From the NCBI RefSeq assembly GCF_029504575.1, contig NZ_JAQFII010000001.1, positions 5,525,001 to 5,589,000 of the forward strand: a stretch of DNA of 64,000 bases, given 5' to 3'. The position numbers were made by a program, and so were the translations under genes. Positions 24,574-48,113 of the stretch are shown in pieces. The notes below the pieces were generated by a model. That model was not told the DNA's origin, ran no database searches, and worked only from the letters and a program-made list of their open reading frames with translations. Origin of the DNA: Streptomyces sp. SPB162. GTDB taxonomy: Bacteria > Actinomycetota > Actinomycetes > Streptomycetales > Streptomycetaceae. Numbering within the stretch: position 1 is the stretch's first letter; each line of letters begins with the position of its first letter.

Positions 24574-24793
24574 CCGGACGCCCATCACCCGTTCGGCCTA
24601 TATCCACACCTTCCGGGTGCACGGATCCCATTCGGGCAACCACCGTCGATCGGTGCCCGGCGCAGCCTTCTGCGGCCTACTGTTGAGAGGCGCGCTGGAA
24701 GGGCATGAACCTTCCAGCAACCTTTACGGGTTTCCGCCGTGGGCACGGTCGCGGTGGACCCAGGTGTCGCACCAGGTTGCGAGAGGGACGGGA

Positions 24794-26929
24794 ATGGAAC
24801 CGACGGAGGGCGCCGCACCGGCGCAGCGGCTGCGTTGGCCGGCCGCGCCGGTACTCCCCTCGGCGGTCTTACGCACCGCGGTGGTGACCGTCGCGGGACT
24901 CGCGCTGGCGGCCGGCGTGGTGGAGGCCGTCCATGAGGGCCGGGCACTCTTCCCCGGCGGCACGGTCGGCTGGGCGTTCGCCGTCCTCACCGGCATCATC
25001 GTCGGCCACCTCGTGGCGATGGGCCGCGACCGCTGGTGGGGCGGGACCGGCTCCGGCGCGGCGCTCACCCTGGCGATGCTGCTGCTCTACGGTTGGATGC
25101 CGTCGGTGCTGGTCAGCCTGGCCGTCGTGGTGCTGGTCGGTGCCGCGCGCCGGCACCGGTGGCGGCAGGCGCTGCTGCACGGCGCCGTGGACATACTGGG
25201 CGTCGGCACGGCCTCGCTGACCCTCGCCTGCTTCAGCGTGCACCCCTCCGTGGCCACCCCCTGGCACCCCGAGGACTGGGGTCTGGCGGCCGGTCCCGCG
25301 CTCGTCGTCACCGCTCTGGCCTATCTGACCGCCACGCGTGCGCTGCTCTGGTTCGCGGTCGCCCCGCGCGGCGGCGGTCTGCCGACGGTGGCCCGCACCG
25401 CGCTGATGCGCCAGGGCATGGTGGGCGTCGCCCTGCTGGGACTCTCCCCGCTGATCCTGGTCGTCGGCTGTGACATGCCGGTCCTGCTCCCGCTGTTCGC
25501 CGTCCCGCTCATCGCCCTGGACTCGACGCTGTGGATCGCGCACGCCCGCGCCGAGGAGCAGTTGCGCGACCCGCTGACCGGGCTGCCCAACCGCCAGTGG
25601 CTGCTGGAACGGGCGTGGATCGCGCTGGACGACGCGGAGCGCAAGGGCGAACGCACCGCGCTGATCCTCATCGACCTCGACAAGTTCCGGTCGGTCAACG
25701 ACACCCTCGGGCACCTGGCGGGCGACCGGCTGCTGCTCCAGGTCGCCGACCGGCTGCGGCTCGCGCTGCCGCGTGGCGCCGAGGCGGCCCGGCTGGGCGG
25801 CGACGAGTTCGCCGTCCTGCTGCCCTGCTGCGACTCCCCGACCCGCGCCCAGCGCATCGCCCGCGCCCTGGTGGCGGCCCTCGGCTCACCGCTGAGCCTG
25901 GACGGGCTGACCCTGGTGCTGGAGGCCAGCGCCGGCGTCGCCGTCTTCCCCGACCACGCGGTGGACGCCGAAGGACTGCTGCGCCGCGCCGACGTGGCGA
26001 TGTACCAGGCCAAGCGCGACCGCAGCGGCGTCGAGGTCTACGAGGCGACCCGCGACGGCAACACCCCGGACCGGCTCGGCCTGTTGGGCGACCTGCGCCG
26101 GGCGCTGGACACGGGCGACGTCGAGCTGCACTACCAGCCGAAGGTCTGCTTCGACGGGAAGATCGCCGGTCTGGAGGCGCTGGTGCGCTGGGAGCACCCG
26201 CAGCGCGGCCGGGTCAATCCCGAGGAGTTCATCGCCATGGCGGAGACCTCCGGGCTGATGCCCCAGCTGACGGAGTACGTGCTGGAGACGGCGCTGGGCC
26301 AGGTGGCCCGCTGGCGCAAGATGGGTCTGGACGTACCCGTCGCGGTGAATGTCTCGCCGCGCGATGTGCACAGCCCCGGCTTCGCGGGCGCGGTCGCCGC
26401 CCGGCTGGCCCGGCACGGCGTCCCGCCCGGCTCGCTGCAACTGGAGATAACCGAGCACGTCCTGCTGGAGGACCCGCAGCGGGCCGCCGACACCATGGCC
26501 GGGCTCACCATGCACGGGGTGAAGATGTCGCTCGACGACTTCGGCACCGGCTACTCCTCCCTGGTCCACCTGCGCAAACTGCCGGTCAGCGAGTTGAAGA
26601 TCGACCGCTCGTTCGTGGCCCGGCTGGTCCTCGACAACGAGGACGCCGAAATCGTCCGCTGCACCGTCGACCTCGCACATTCCCTCGGGCTGCTCGTCGT
26701 CGCCGAGGGCGTGGAGGACGACGAGACCTGGGAGCGGCTGCGGGACCTGGGCTGCGACGCCGTCCAGGGCTGGCTGGTCGCCGCCGCGATGCCGCCCGAC
26801 GAGGCCACCGCCTGGCTGCGCGCCCGCGAGCACGGCTGGCGGCGCCCCAACGCGCTGGAGCGCGAGCCGGAACCGGAGCACGCACCGGTGGCGGACGCGG
26901 ACCAGCCCTCCGGGCAGGCCGTGACGTAG
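24794..26929 (+). CDS. rmdB: Membrane-bound GGDEF-EAL protein, c-di-GMP turnover (RmdB-like)
   Basis: 711 residues: seven or eight membrane spans (about residues 25-250), then GGDEF ([11 protein letters not shown], with DPLTGLPNR at its start) and EAL. All key EAL residues look intact: [59 protein letters not shown] and AVQGW. It could therefore both make and degrade c-di-GMP. Codon 26 is TTA (24869-24871), so translation should need the bldA tRNA. The start at 24794 follows GAGAGGGACGGGA. S. coelicolor RmdB is, as I recall, encoded next to ligA; orthology is inferred from that synteny. It is the active counterpart to the degenerate protein at 41460. Confidence 0.9.
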
Positions 26930-40288: not shown

Positions 40289-41242
40289 ATGGCTGACACG
40301 TTGCAGAACCACCGGCCCCAGGTCTGGTTGCCCATTCCGCCCGCGGAGCTCGGCCCGCTGCCCGCGGACCTGGACTACGTCTTCTGGGACGGCGCCGACG
40401 CATACCCGGCGGATCCGTCGACCGCCGCGTTCTACGTCGTCCCGTACATGAAGGGGGCGGAGGTCGCCGGACGGCCGCTGCCGCGGATGTCGGGCCTCCG
40501 CGTCGTACAGACCCTGAGCGCGGGCACCGACCACGTCGCCGGACACCTCGGGCAGCTGCCGCCTGGCGTGCGCCTGTGCAACGCGCGGGGCGTGCACGAG
40601 GCGAGCACCGCGGAACTCACCCTCACGCTCATCCTCGCCTCGCTGCGCGGTATCCCGCGCTTCGTGCGCGGCCAGGACGCGGAGGAGTGGCACGACGGCT
40701 TCTACCCCGCGCTCGCCGACAGGAGCGTGCTGATCATCGGCTACGGCTCGATCGGCAGCGCCATCGAGGACCGGCTCACGCCGTTCGAGTGCGACGTCGT
40801 CCGCGTCGCCCGCAGCGCGCGGCCCTCCCCGCGCGGCCCGGTGCACTCCCTCGCCGAACTGCCGGAACTGCTGCCGCAGGCCGATGTGGTGGTGCTCTCC
40901 ACCCCGCTCACCGAGGCGACCAGGGGACTGGCCGGAGCGGAGTTCCTGTCCGGGATGAAGGACGGCGCGCTGCTGGTGAACGTCGCGCGCGGGCCCGTGG
41001 TTGACACCAAGGCGCTGCTGGCCGAACTGGAGTCCGGACGACTGCGGGCGGCACTCGATGTCACGGACCCGGAACCGCTGCCCGCCGGACACCCGCTCTG
41101 GCACGCGCCGGGCCTGCTCATCAGCCCGCACGTCGGCGGCAGCACCTCCGCCTTTCTCCCCAGGGCCAAGCGGCTGCTGCGCGCTCAGTTGTTCCGCTTC
41201 GCCACAGGGGAGCCGCTGCACAACGTGGTCACCACCACCTGA
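40289..41242 (+). CDS. 2-hydroxyacid dehydrogenase (D-isomer specific)
   Basis: 317 residues. NAD-binding GYGSIGSAIEDRL (GxGxxG) around residue 150, catalytic Arg in VLSTPLT...LVNVARGPVVDTKAL, Glu in DVTDPEPLPAGHPLW and His in LLISPHVGGSTSAF, the canonical Arg-Glu-His order of the D-2-hydroxyacid dehydrogenase family. Physiological substrate unknown; relatives include glyoxylate and phosphoglycerate dehydrogenases (serA, further on, is a longer paralogue with an ACT domain). Leaderless-type start. Confidence 0.92.
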   Translation: MADTLQNHRPQVWLPIPPAELGPLPADLDYVFWDGADAYPADPSTAAFYVVPYMKGAEVAGRPLPRMSGLRVVQTLSAGTDHVAGHLGQLPPGVRLCNARGVHEASTAELTLTLILASLRGIPRFVRGQDAEEWHDGFYPALADRSVLIIGYGSIGSAIEDRLTPFECDVVRVARSARPSPRGPVHSLAELPELLPQADVVVLSTPLTEATRGLAGAEFLSGMKDGALLVNVARGPVVDTKALLAELESGRLRAALDVTDPEPLPAGHPLWHAPGLLISPHVGGSTSAFLPRAKRLLRAQLFRFATGEPLHNVVTTT

Positions 41243-41305
41243 CGCCGCAGGCGGAGGGCGGGTGGCACCCCGTGACTGCGCTGCGTACTGGTGATCTTCC
41301 CTGCG

Positions 41306-41320
41306 GTTACGCTGTGTAGA
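41306..41320. promoter_or_regulatory. BldD-box-like site 1 upstream of GGDEF-EAL gene
   Basis: GTTACGCTGTGTAGA fits the remembered BldD consensus nTnACnCwGnGTnAn at every fixed position except the last A, which is G. It lies about 140 bp before the ATG at 41460. BldD is the c-di-GMP-responsive developmental repressor and controls several c-di-GMP genes. Confidence 0.6.
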
Positions 41321-41326
41321 GGAACT

Positions 41327-41341
41327 ATGTCCCTGAGTGAC
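41327..41341. promoter_or_regulatory. BldD-box-like site 2 upstream of GGDEF-EAL gene
   Basis: ATGTCCCTGAGTGAC fits the BldD consensus with one mismatch (T for the first fixed A). Its centre is 21 bp from that of the first site, two helical turns, as expected for co-operating sites on one face of DNA. Confidence 0.6.
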
Positions 41342-41459
41342 GGGTCTGGTGTATCGTCCCGACCGGGGGACGCGTCACGGACGCCCGGGGGTTGCACGCG
41401 GGTGACGGCGGCGCGCGAAAGGTCAGCAAGCAAGGGGGGCGACGGGTGATGCACTGCCA

Positions 41460-44360
41460 ATGGGGAGACGACCTGACGCGGTACCGCGGCGTACCGCGAC
41501 AGTTGTCCGGGGCCACGCGGTGAGCTCCACCGGGGCGGTGATCGCTCAGCCGCCCGCCCATGCCGGCCGGGCCGGGCTCGTGCCCCAACTCCTGGTCGCC
41601 GCCCTCTGCGGGGGTTACGCGACCGGCGCGGCGGTGGGGTGGGGATCGACCTGGCTCGCGGACATCATGGGCGACTTCGGGCTCGCCGCCGCCGCGGCCG
41701 CGGCCGGTGTCTCCTCGTTCGTCTACGCGCGGACCCTCAGGGGCCGCCAGCGGCCCACCTGGTTCCTGTTCGCCGGCTCATCCGCCATGGTGGCGCTCGG
41801 CAACGGAACCTGGGGATGGTACGAGGTGGTGCTGGACGGCACACTGCCGCAGACGTCGATCGCCGACTTCTTCTTCCTGCTCTTCGCCCCACCGGCGATC
41901 ATCGGCCTGCTGATGCTCGCCAAGCGCCCGGTGACCCGGGCCGGCTGGGTCTGCCTGGGCCTCGACGCGTGGCTCGTCGGCGGCTCGCTGCTCACCCTGG
42001 CCTGGAGCCTCGCCCTGGCGAACGACGCGAGCCTGGAGGGGCTCAGCGCCGCCCAGGCCGCGCTCCGGCTCGCCTATCCGCTGCTTGACATCGCGCTCGC
42101 CAGCATGGTGCTGGCGCTGCACTTCCGGCGCTCCCCGGCGAACCGGGTCGCGGTCAACACCGCCATCGCCGCCCTGGCGCTGACCGTGCTGTGCGACGCG
42201 CTCTTCCGCTCCCCGCTCTGGCGCGAGCACTACCAGTCCGGCCACATCCTGGACGCCGGGTGGTTCGCCGGCTCCATGCTCCTCGCGTACGCCCCCTGGG
42301 CGGGCCGGCGGAACGCCGCGCGGCAGGACCCGCGCTCCCTCGCACACTCCAGCCGCAAGGTAGCGGGCTCGCTGGCCGCGCTCGTCCCGTACCTGGCGGC
42401 GGCCGTCTGCACCCTGGGCATCCTGTACAACGTGATCGACGGCCGGAAGACCGACCACGTGGTGCTCTTCACCGGCTGCACCGTCGTCCTCGCCCTCGTC
42501 GTGCGCCAGGGCATCATGCTGCTCGACAACATCGCCCTCACCCAGGAACTGGCCCAGAAGGAGAACCACTTCCGGTCCCTGGTGCAGGGCTCCAGCGACG
42601 TCATCATGATCGCCGCGCCCACCGGGGTGCTGCGCTACGTGAGCCCCGCCGCCCGGGGCGTGTACGGGCGGGACGCCGGGGAGATGGTGGGCACCGAGCT
42701 CGCCTCGCACATCCACCCCGAGGACCTGGGGCGGGTGGTGCACGAGGTCCGCAGGTTTCTCGCCGCCTCGCCCGCCGCGGAGCCCGCTACGCGCATCGAG
42801 TGCCGCATCCGCGCCGGACGCGGCCGGGACGGCGGCGGCTGGCTCAATGTGGAGTCCAGCGTCAACCGCTACCAGGGCGGGCTGATCTTCAACAGTCGCG
42901 ACGTGACCGAACGGGTGCGCCTGCAGGCCCAGCTCCAGCACAACGCGTCGCACGACCCGCTCACCGACCTGCCGAACCGGGCGCTGTTCACCGAGCGGGT
43001 GAGCCGGGCACTCGGCGGCCGCCGCAGCGGCGACGGCGAGGCGGCGGTGCTCTTCGTCGACCTCGACGGTTTCAAGGCGGTCAACGATACGGTCGGCCAC
43101 CAGGCCGGCGACGAGCTGCTCGTCCAGGCGGCCAGGCGGCTCCAGGAGTCGGTCCGCTCGGGGGACACGGCGGCACGTCTGGGCGGCGATGAATTCGCCG
43201 CCCTCATCTGTGGCGGGAGTGCCGACCGGCGGCTGCGGGAGTACCAGATCCACGAGATCGCCGACCGGCTGCGGTCCGCGCTCTCCCAGCCGTACCGCGT
43301 GGAGTCCGGCGAGGTCCGGGTCGCGGCCAGCATCGGCGTCGCGTTCGCCGAGCCGGGGATCACCCCCAGCGAGCTCATGCGCAACGCGGACCTGGCGATG
43401 TACCGCGCGAAACAGGCGGGCAAGGGCCGGGTCGAGATGTACGCGCCCCAGATGCAGGCCGACGTGGTGCGCAGGGCCGAACTGGCCACCCGGCTGCGCA
43501 ACGCCCTGCACGACGGGGAGTTCACCCTCCTGCACCAACCCGTGGTCGAGCTGCGGACCGGCCGGGTCGCGGCCGTCGAGGCGCAAGCCCGCTGGCGCTC
43601 CGCCCAGGGCATCCTCTTCACCCCCGCCGAGTTCCTGCGGGTGGCGGAGGACACCGACCGCACCGCGGAGCTGAGCCGCTGGCTGCTGCAGGAGGCGGTC
43701 GAGCAGGCCGCGCTGCGGCACGGATCCGGCCACGCCGTGCCGGTGGCCGTCCGGATGTCCGTCCGTCGGCTGATGCACCGGGACCTGCCGCCCGGCAGCA
43801 TCGAGACGCTGCTGAGCCGCCATGAGCTGCCGACGGGCGGCCTGGTGCTGGAGCTGACCGACAACGACCCGCGGATCTCCCTGGAGGAGCTGGAGCGCAG
43901 GCTGTCGGCGCTGCGCCGCCTCGGTGTCCAGATCGCACTGGACGGCTTCGGCACCGGCTACGCCGCGATGACCGCGCTGCGCCGCCTCCCGGTGGATCTG
44001 CTCAAGATCGACCGCAGCTTCGTCGAGGGGATCGTCGAGTCCGCGCGGCTGCACAAGATCACCGCGGGCATGCTGCGGATCGCCGAGGACCTGGGCATCC
44101 GCACCGTCGCGGACGGGGTGGACCGGCCCGAGCAGGTCGTCGCGCTGCGCGCCATGGGCTGTACGCACGGCCAGGGCCTGGCGTTCTCCGGCCCGCTCGA
44201 CGAGCACCGGCTGCGGGGCTCGCTGACCCGCGGCGGCTACCCCGTACCGCATGGCTCGGTGGCCCTGACCGGCGGCCCGCTGCCCGTGCGCCACAACGGC
44301 ACCACCGGTTCGGGTGACGCCCTCTGCTCAAATGCTGAGACGCCCGTCCCACCCGCTTGA
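41460..44360 (+). CDS. Membrane PAS-GGDEF-EAL protein with degenerate EAL domain
   Basis: 966 residues: about eight to ten membrane spans (roughly 35-345), a PAS domain (ENHFRSLVQGSSDVIMIAAPTG...), an intact GGDEF ([11 protein letters not shown], preceded by DPLTDLPNR) and a C-terminal EAL. The EAL is damaged at catalytic sites: VEAQARW, AVRMSVRRL (Asn to Arg), LELTDND (lacks ExTE Glu), LDGFGTGY (second Asp to Gly) and ADGVDRP (Glu to Asp). It is thus likely a diguanylate cyclase with a regulatory pseudo-EAL. Start uncertain: ATG 41460 is listed, GTG 41520 is possible; neither has a good ribosome site. I recall S. coelicolor SCO5511 as the equivalent. Confidence 0.9.
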   Translation: MGRRPDAVPRRTATVVRGHAVSSTGAVIAQPPAHAGRAGLVPQLLVAALCGGYATGAAVGWGSTWLADIMGDFGLAAAAAAAGVSSFVYARTLRGRQRPTWFLFAGSSAMVALGNGTWGWYEVVLDGTLPQTSIADFFFLLFAPPAIIGLLMLAKRPVTRAGWVCLGLDAWLVGGSLLTLAWSLALANDASLEGLSAAQAALRLAYPLLDIALASMVLALHFRRSPANRVAVNTAIAALALTVLCDALFRSPLWREHYQSGHILDAGWFAGSMLLAYAPWAGRRNAARQDPRSLAHSSRKVAGSLAALVPYLAAAVCTLGILYNVIDGRKTDHVVLFTGCTVVLALVVRQGIMLLDNIALTQELAQKENHFRSLVQGSSDVIMIAAPTGVLRYVSPAARGVYGRDAGEMVGTELASHIHPEDLGRVVHEVRRFLAASPAAEPATRIECRIRAGRGRDGGGWLNVESSVNRYQGGLIFNSRDVTERVRLQAQLQHNASHDPLTDLPNRALFTERVSRALGGRRSGDGEAAVLFVDLDGFKAVNDTVGHQAGDELLVQAARRLQESVRSGDTAARLGGDEFAALICGGSADRRLREYQIHEIADRLRSALSQPYRVESGEVRVAASIGVAFAEPGITPSELMRNADLAMYRAKQAGKGRVEMYAPQMQADVVRRAELATRLRNALHDGEFTLLHQPVVELRTGRVAAVEAQARWRSAQGILFTPAEFLRVAEDTDRTAELSRWLLQEAVEQAALRHGSGHAVPVAVRMSVRRLMHRDLPPGSIETLLSRHELPTGGLVLELTDNDPRISLEELERRLSALRRLGVQIALDGFGTGYAAMTALRRLPVDLLKIDRSFVEGIVESARLHKITAGMLRIAEDLGIRTVADGVDRPEQVVALRAMGCTHGQGLAFSGPLDEHRLRGSLTRGGYPVPHGSVALTGGPLPVRHNGTTGSGDALCSNAETPVPPA

Positions 44361-44393
44361 CACTCCGAGGGGTCCAGGGAGAGGGTCGTGTCC

Positions 44394-44435
44394 ATGCGCA
44401 CCCGAATTCTCGTACTTGGAAAGCGCGTCGGCTGA
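44394..44435 (+). CDS. ilv leader peptide (branched-chain amino-acid rich)
   Basis: A 13-codon ORF, MRTRILVLGKRVG, with four consecutive regulatory codons Ile-Leu-Val-Leu. GGGAGAGGG 9 nt upstream of the ATG gives a good ribosome site; an in-frame GTG at 44388 is also possible. It is followed by a terminator at 44476-44509 and then ilvB. Ribosome stalling at the ILVL codons when charged tRNAs are low should prevent terminator formation. Attenuation of ilvB has been predicted by comparative genomics in actinobacteria. Confidence 0.85.
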   Translation: MRTRILVLGKRVG

Positions 44436-44475
44436 CCGGGGCCCACCACCGCCTTGGAAAACGCACCGACGCGCT

Positions 44476-44509
44476 CCCCTCGCTTGCCTGACGGCACGAG
44501 GGGTTTTTT
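44476..44509 (+). terminator. Attenuator terminator upstream of ilvB
   Basis: CCCCTCG (44476-44482) pairs with CGAGGGG (44497-44503), followed by TTTTTT, 50 nt before the ilvB ATG. This is a rare canonical T-run terminator for this GC-rich genome and completes the leader-peptide attenuation unit. Confidence 0.88.
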
Positions 44510-44558
44510 GTTGCCTGGCACCCAGAAGAAAACTCATCTTCGAGAGAAGAGAACGCAG

Positions 44559-46436
44559 ATGACCGAGCAGGCCACCGGGGCCCCCCATCCGCAAGCGCGG
44601 GCCCGCAGCGGGGGACAGCAGCCCACCACCCCAGAGCGCATGACGGGCGCGCAGTCCCTCATCCGCTCGCTCGAGGCGGTCGGCGCCGACACCGTATTCG
44701 GTATCCCTGGCGGTGCGATCCTGCCGGCCTACGACCCGCTGATGGACTCCGTCAAGGTCCGCCACATCCTGGTCCGCCACGAGCAGGGGGCCGGCCACGC
44801 CGCCACCGGCTACGCGCAGGCCACCGGCCGGGTCGGCGTCTGCATGGCCACCTCCGGGCCGGGCGCCACCAACCTCGTGACCCCGATCGCCGACGCCCAC
44901 ATGGACTCCGTCCCACTGGTCGCGATCACCGGCCAGGTCGCCTCCAAGGCGATCGGCACCGACGCCTTCCAGGAGGCGGACATCTGCGGCATCACGATGC
45001 CGATCACCAAGCACAACTTCCTGGTGACCAGGGCCGAGGACATCCCCCGGACCATCGCCGAGGCGTTCCACATCGCCGCCACCGGCCGTCCGGGCCCGGT
45101 CCTCGTCGACATCGCCAAGGACGCGCTGCAGAACCAGACGACCTTCTCCTGGCCGCCGCAGACGGACCTGCCCGGCTACCGCCCGGTGACCAAGCCGCAC
45201 GCCAAGCAGATCCGTGAGGCCGCCCGGCTGATCAACGAGGCCAAGCGCCCGGTGCTGTACGTCGGCGGCGGCGTCATGAAGGCCCGCGCCACCGCCGAGC
45301 TGCGGATCCTGGCCGAGCTGACCGGCGCCCCGGTCGTCACCACGCTGATGGCGCTCGGCTCGTTCCCCGACAGCCACCCCCAGCACGTCGGCATGCCCGG
45401 TATGCACGGTGACGTCACCGCGGTCACCGCCCTGCAGAAGTCCGACCTGCTGATCGCGCTCGGCGCCCGCTTCGACGACCGGGTGACCGGCCGGCTCGAC
45501 ACCTTCGCGCCGGGCGCGAAGATCGTGCACGCCGACATCGACCCCGCCGAGATCGGCAAGAACCGCGCCGCGGACGTGCCGATCGTCGGTGACGCCCGCG
45601 AGGTCCTCGCCGACCTGATCGTCGCGGTCCAGGCGGACCACGAGGCCGGCCACAAGGGCGACTACGCCGACTGGTGGAAGGACCTCAACCGCTGGCGCGA
45701 GACCTACCCGCTGGGCTACGACACCCCGGACGACGGCAGCCTCTCCCCGCAGCAGGTCATCGAGCGGATCGGCCAGCTGGCCCCCGAGGGCACGCTGTTC
45801 GCGGCCGGCGTCGGCCAGCACCAGATGTGGGCCGCGCAGTTCATCAAGTACGAGAAGCCCAACACGTGGTTCAACTCCGGCGGCGCCGGGACCATGGGGT
45901 ACGCGGTGCCCGCCGCGATGGGCGCCAAGGCCGGTGTCCCCGGCGCGACCGTCTGGGCGGTCGACGGTGACGGCTGCTTCCAGATGACCAACCAGGAACT
46001 GGTCACCTGCGCGCTCAACAACATCCCGATCAAGGTCGCCATCATCAACAACGGCGCCCTGGGCATGGTCCGCCAGTGGCAGAACCTCTTCTACGGGGAG
46101 CGGTTCTCCAACACCGTGCTGCACGCCGGTGAGACCAACTCGAACAGCGGCTCGACGGTCGGCGTCGGCTCGACGGTGAACCGCGGCACCCGCGTCCCGG
46201 ACTTCGTCAAGCTCTCCGAGGCGATGGGCTGCGTGGGTCTGCGCTGCGAGAGCCCGGACGAGCTGGACGCGGTCATCGCCAAGGCCAACTCGATCAACGA
46301 CCGCCCGGTGGTCGTGGACTTCATCGTCCACGAGGACGCCATGGTGTGGCCGATGGTCGCCGCCGGCACCTCCAACGACGAGATCCTGGCCGCCCGCGAT
46401 GTCCGCCCGGACTTCAGCGACGGCCAGGAAGACTGA
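44559..46436 (+). CDS. ilvB: Acetolactate synthase large subunit
   Basis: 625 residues; TPP-, FAD- and Mg-dependent enzyme making acetolactate or acetohydroxybutyrate, first step of Ile/Val/Leu synthesis. Visible: [31 protein letters not shown] with the catalytic Glu, [11 protein letters not shown], central FAD domain ([31 protein letters not shown]) and TPP motif GDGCFQMT...[11 protein letters not shown]. The first ~35 residues ([14 protein letters not shown]) are a variable extension. ATG 44559 after AGAGAAGAGA. First gene of ilvBNC, under attenuator control. Confidence 0.97.
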
Positions 46437-46467
46437 GGCGCAGGACCGAGAGAAGGAACGAAGCGAC

Positions 46468-48113
<1,646 letters not shown>

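Follow-up and report, generated by a model that had tools for sequence, protein, structure and literature searches.

BldD boxes upstream of a c-di-GMP gene in Streptomyces sp. SPB162

We wanted to know whether two BldD-like boxes lying side by side in a 64,000-nucleotide stretch of Streptomyces sp. SPB162 DNA (the window; contig NZ_JAQFII010000001.1, positions 5,525,001 to 5,589,000) form an operator of the gene that follows them, and whether this gene would then belong to a c-di-GMP feedback loop. The boxes, box I and box II (Table 1), were scored against the BldD consensus nTnACnC(A/T)GnGTnAn, as quoted in PMC7374567. Each deviates once, and in one half-site, from this pseudo-palindrome (TNAC(N)5GTNA), and the strict 13-bp BldD form is matched exactly by neither. 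As read directly from the sequence, the sole mismatch of box I is a G for A at 41319, its last informative base, and that of box II is a T for A at 41330. In both boxes, the outer half matches the consensus (TTAC in box I, GTGA in box II) whereas the inner half deviates from it (GTAG and TGTC, respectively). Boxes of an orthologous promoter that were proven by EMSA depart from the consensus as much or more (PMC7374567). The box centres are located at 41313 and 41334. An earlier note had described one mismatch in each box at 41306-41341, and centres 21 bp apart on the same face of the helix. The sequence and the published consensus bear out the mismatches, the spacing is indeed 21 bp, and a common helical face would be consistent with the invariance of this spacing across orthologs.

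Table 1. Features of the cdgC upstream region and gene (window coordinates)
Feature	Sequence	Position	Strand	Remark
Box I	GTTACGCTGTGTAGA	41306..41320	+	One mismatch to BldD consensus; predicted site
Box II	ATGTCCCTGAGTGAC	41327..41341	+	One mismatch to BldD consensus; predicted site
Promoter-like element	CTGGTGTATCGTCC	41346..41359	+	Near-invariant in orthologs
Shine-Dalgarno-like run ahead of leader ORF	GGGGGG	41434..41439	+	AGGGGG then ATG/GTG kept in relatives
Possible leader ORF, 24 codons	MHCQWGDDLTRYRGVPRQLSGATR	41449..41523	+	TGA overlaps GTG 41520 by 4 nt (GTGA)
cdgC, membrane-PAS-GGDEF-degenerate EAL diguanylate cyclase		41520..44360	+	Pfam domains, motif reading

The gene downstream of the boxes is predicted to be cdgC

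The same note had placed a c-di-GMP gene downstream of the boxes, and the diguanylate cyclase domains detected with Pfam agree with this. The longest ORF runs from ATG 41460 to 44360, and its product matches PAS_4, GGDEF and EAL. Both the GGDEF motif and the RSGD I-site are preserved, the EAL motif reads EAQ and is degenerate, and the N-terminal part is hydrophobic as judged by eye. An ilvB-like gene for an acetolactate-synthase-type TPP enzyme is found directly downstream. From the gene order of S. coelicolor, we take ilvB and rmdB to be the neighbours of cdgC. The domain architecture is that of CdgC, and ilvB-like and rmdB-like genes are both nearby. Judged by architecture, neighbourhood and promoter, the gene is taken to be the ortholog of cdgC (SCO5511 / SVEN_5187 / SSFG_02181), the names ssfg_02181, sco5511 and sven5187 all referring to cdgC (PMC7911125). 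An identity as cdgE was rejected, since the papers give SCO5511 as cdgC and sco4931 as cdgE (PMC7911125). Control by BldC was considered and set aside, the BldC paper dealing with cdgE and not with cdgC, and the effects of RNase III/J on the cdgC transcript level (PMC12096830) have no bearing on the boxes. The window also contains a GGDEF-EAL gene at 24617-26929, between ligA and gatA, which is probably the rmdB ortholog.

BldD binds and represses the orthologous promoter of S. ghanaensis

The promoter of S. ghanaensis ssfg_02181 carries two BldD boxes, TCTACGCTCCGTAAC and ATGTCCCTGAGTGAC (PMC7374567), of which box II is letter-identical to box II of the window. Box I of S. ghanaensis was printed on the strand opposite to that of box II, and this hides its identity with box I of the window. 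Its reverse complement, GTTACGGAGCGTAGA, shares 12 of 15 positions with the window box and likewise ends in GTAGA; the window box is the closer of the two to the BldD consensus. Purified BldD binds the S. ghanaensis promoter in EMSA only with c-di-GMP. When box I, the primary site, was replaced, binding was abolished, and when box II was replaced, binding was weaker and the BldD needed rose from 0.05 to 0.15 uM (PMC7374567). In a reporter assay, mutation of bldD raised promoter activity 1.7-fold, and deletion of ssfg_02181 itself increased it as well (PMC7374567). As this derepression is modest, it points to tuning and not to shut-off. The S. ghanaensis authors proposed a negative feedback and described both boxes as common to orthologs (PMC7374567). 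In S. coelicolor, sco5511 is directly regulated by BldD according to PMC3781837, and both PMC3781837 and PMC7374567 cite den Hengst et al. 2010 for this ortholog, which has BldD boxes in its promoter, as here. Likewise, PMC7911125 cites S. venezuelae cdgC as being under BldD control.

Repression of a c-di-GMP gene by c-di-GMP-activated BldD, which the earlier note had supposed, has therefore been shown at the orthologous S. ghanaensis promoter, and the feedback loop it expected is supported and was already proposed for that species (PMC7374567). The S. ghanaensis system has the same gene, the same two boxes and the same proposed feedback in a different species. Taken with our own analysis, this makes it very probable that the two boxes together form the operator through which BldD represses cdgC, as part of a c-di-GMP negative feedback.

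The box pair and its asymmetry are conserved

Ortholog upstream regions came from relatives of the window's genome and from named genomes in GTDB. In a first set, 59 of 70 upstream regions contained a 21-bp pair with at most three mismatches in total, and other spacings from 13 to 45 bp gave none, save for a single locus at 15 bp and another at 44 bp. No 21-bp pair at this threshold (three mismatches or fewer) was detected in 20 shuffles. With at most four mismatches in total, the 21-bp pair was present at 141 of the 142 distinct loci of a larger set, the window's own included; as the loci are related by descent, these counts are not independent events. The lone exception belongs to another family of the order and contains neither the pair nor the TGGTGTA motif considered below, and both were also absent upstream of seven homologs from other families.

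Column by column, the DNA flanking the boxes is strongly diverged among orthologs while the boxes are not, and the invariant positions coincide with the BldD half-sites TnAC and GTnA. The 13-bp core of box II is the commonest form (77/141 loci). At the final position of the box I core, 119 loci have G, 15 have T and 7 have C, and the equivalent position in the 5' half of box II is T at 130, G at 7 and C at 4; at neither position is A found in any of the 141 loci. The outer half-site positions that were tested are fixed or almost so in the same loci. The one-base 'defects' are conserved, every box pairing a good outer half-site with a poor inner one. The box pair and the feedback loop are essentially known biology, already demonstrated in orthologs, and only the depth of the conservation and the conserved asymmetry are new here.

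A promoter-like element adjoins box II

Of 141 loci, 140 carry TGGTGTA just 3' of box II, 138 of these with an identical distance between the two, and a pattern search returned a single exact copy of CTGGTGTATCGTCC in the whole genome. From this conservation, TATCGT (41352-41357) is likely the -10 hexamer, so that box II would cover the -35 region, with box I immediately 5' of it. Scanning 41220-41560 for generic sigma-70 promoters and terminators gave nothing, with no good -35 hexamer, and an Rfam scan of 41000-47500 gave two matches, both far under the gathering scores and not credible.

Since box II sits where a -35 region is expected, it could be held constant for this role and not as an operator, box I alone being the BldD site. 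Its almost fixed non-consensus T (130/141) would fit with this, as would the finding that box II mutation merely weakens BldD binding (PMC7374567). However, both halves of box II keep the BldD spacing with the outer GT-A invariant, a TTGACA-like hexamer is not recognisable there, and loss of the box raised the BldD requirement from 0.05 to 0.15 uM (PMC7374567). Moreover, the two roles are not mutually exclusive. We consider it unlikely that box II is only a -35 region.

It is much less probable that the conserved block serves mostly as a promoter and as the site of another regulator, for instance the response regulator MtrA, the likeness to BldD boxes being secondary. The block does reach into the -10-like element, MtrA and BldD share bldD as a target (PMC5650626), and chance alone often yields a lone BldD box with one mismatch. 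Yet the orthologous promoter binds BldD only with c-di-GMP and no longer binds it once box I is replaced (PMC7374567), the invariant positions are those of the half-sites TnAC and GTnA, and the motif of MtrA consists of an 18-nt direct repeat, not a pseudo-palindrome (PMC5650626).

Lone one-mismatch boxes are near background and carry little weight alone. The window contains 7 one-mismatch boxes versus 5.4 +/- 2.1 in simulated sequence, and a pattern search of the 7.2-Mb genome gave 394 one-mismatch boxes versus 241 for the reversed control pattern. Boxes I and II are the only pair of boxes with one mismatch or fewer within 40 bp in the window, where 0.03 were expected. Genome-wide, about one close pair is expected, by a rough estimate from the density of one-mismatch sites, so that the case for an operator rests on conservation and on the published experiments. 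Although this density allows for a chance resemblance of boxes without function, conservation of the pair already refutes it (same spacing at 141 of 142 orthologous loci, none in shuffles), and we give it practically no credence.

The same genome encodes BldD and contains other BldD boxes

A BldD operator would require its repressor. The BldD-like C-terminal domain has one match in the genome, and the bldD gene encodes an intact c-di-GMP motif, RGD-X8-RQDD, in the reading frame; by this motif, the genome that carries cdgC also encodes an intact BldD. The bldD promoter (C1:1423708; L031 1200-1227) contains a perfect box, TTACGCTGCGTAA, and, 15 bp beyond it, a box with one mismatch. This autoregulatory box is identical to box I of the window at 11 of 13 positions; it differs in being perfectly palindromic and in the distance to its neighbour (15 bp versus 21 bp for the cdgC pair). 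Separately, two boxes lie in the 5' region of another GGDEF gene (L155 850-1085), one of them perfect, TCACGCAGAGTAA, and the other with a single mismatch.

A possible leader ORF and the probable start of cdgC

Between the promoter-like element and cdgC, a short leader ORF is possible. A leader ORF with a terminal NTGA overlap was found at 121 of 141 loci, with lengths of 20-92 codons; the overlap is partly automatic, because any in-frame TGA after A, G or T creates one. The leader peptide is poorly conserved past its first residues. GC contents at the three codon positions are 0.73/0.74/0.79 in the leader ORF versus 0.73/0.62/0.91 in cdgC, a weak signal, so the encoded peptide may be of no importance. 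Coupling of cdgC translation to that of the leader ORF is possible and is the simplest reading. The overlap suggests that cdgC starts at GTG 41520 rather than at ATG 41460, and annotated cdgC starts may be off.

Model for cdgC control by BldD

In the BldD operator model, BldD dimerised by tetrameric c-di-GMP would bind box I as its main site and repress cdgC, and box II would strengthen this binding, both as established in orthologs. Two BldD dimers would sit two helical turns apart on one face of the DNA, and BldD on box II/-35 and on box I may block RNA polymerase by promoter occlusion. As CdgC makes c-di-GMP, which would activate BldD and in turn repress cdgC, the circuit would be a negative feedback loop. 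Such a feedback would cap c-di-GMP in vegetative growth, and cdgC would be released once c-di-GMP or BldD falls. The imperfect inner half-sites may keep the boxes below maximal affinity, in which case occupancy would track the level of BldD-(c-di-GMP).

More tentatively, the cdgC operator of the Streptomycetaceae could be a fixed two-dimer module, with a 21-bp lock and good outer and imperfect inner half-sites, that works as a weak, cooperative BldD-(c-di-GMP) sensor, the amount of CdgC being set in addition at translation via the conserved leader ORF; we see this as a possibility that is rather less likely than otherwise. The family-wide constraint (21 bp, and never the consensus A at the inner positions) makes it possible to test directly what box II does in vivo, and this is what the present analysis adds. 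CdgC was reported to be a major determinant of developmental c-di-GMP levels in S. venezuelae (PMC6205966). Given this weight of CdgC in c-di-GMP levels, the BldD feedback would bear on the timing of sporulation and antibiotic production in Streptomyces.
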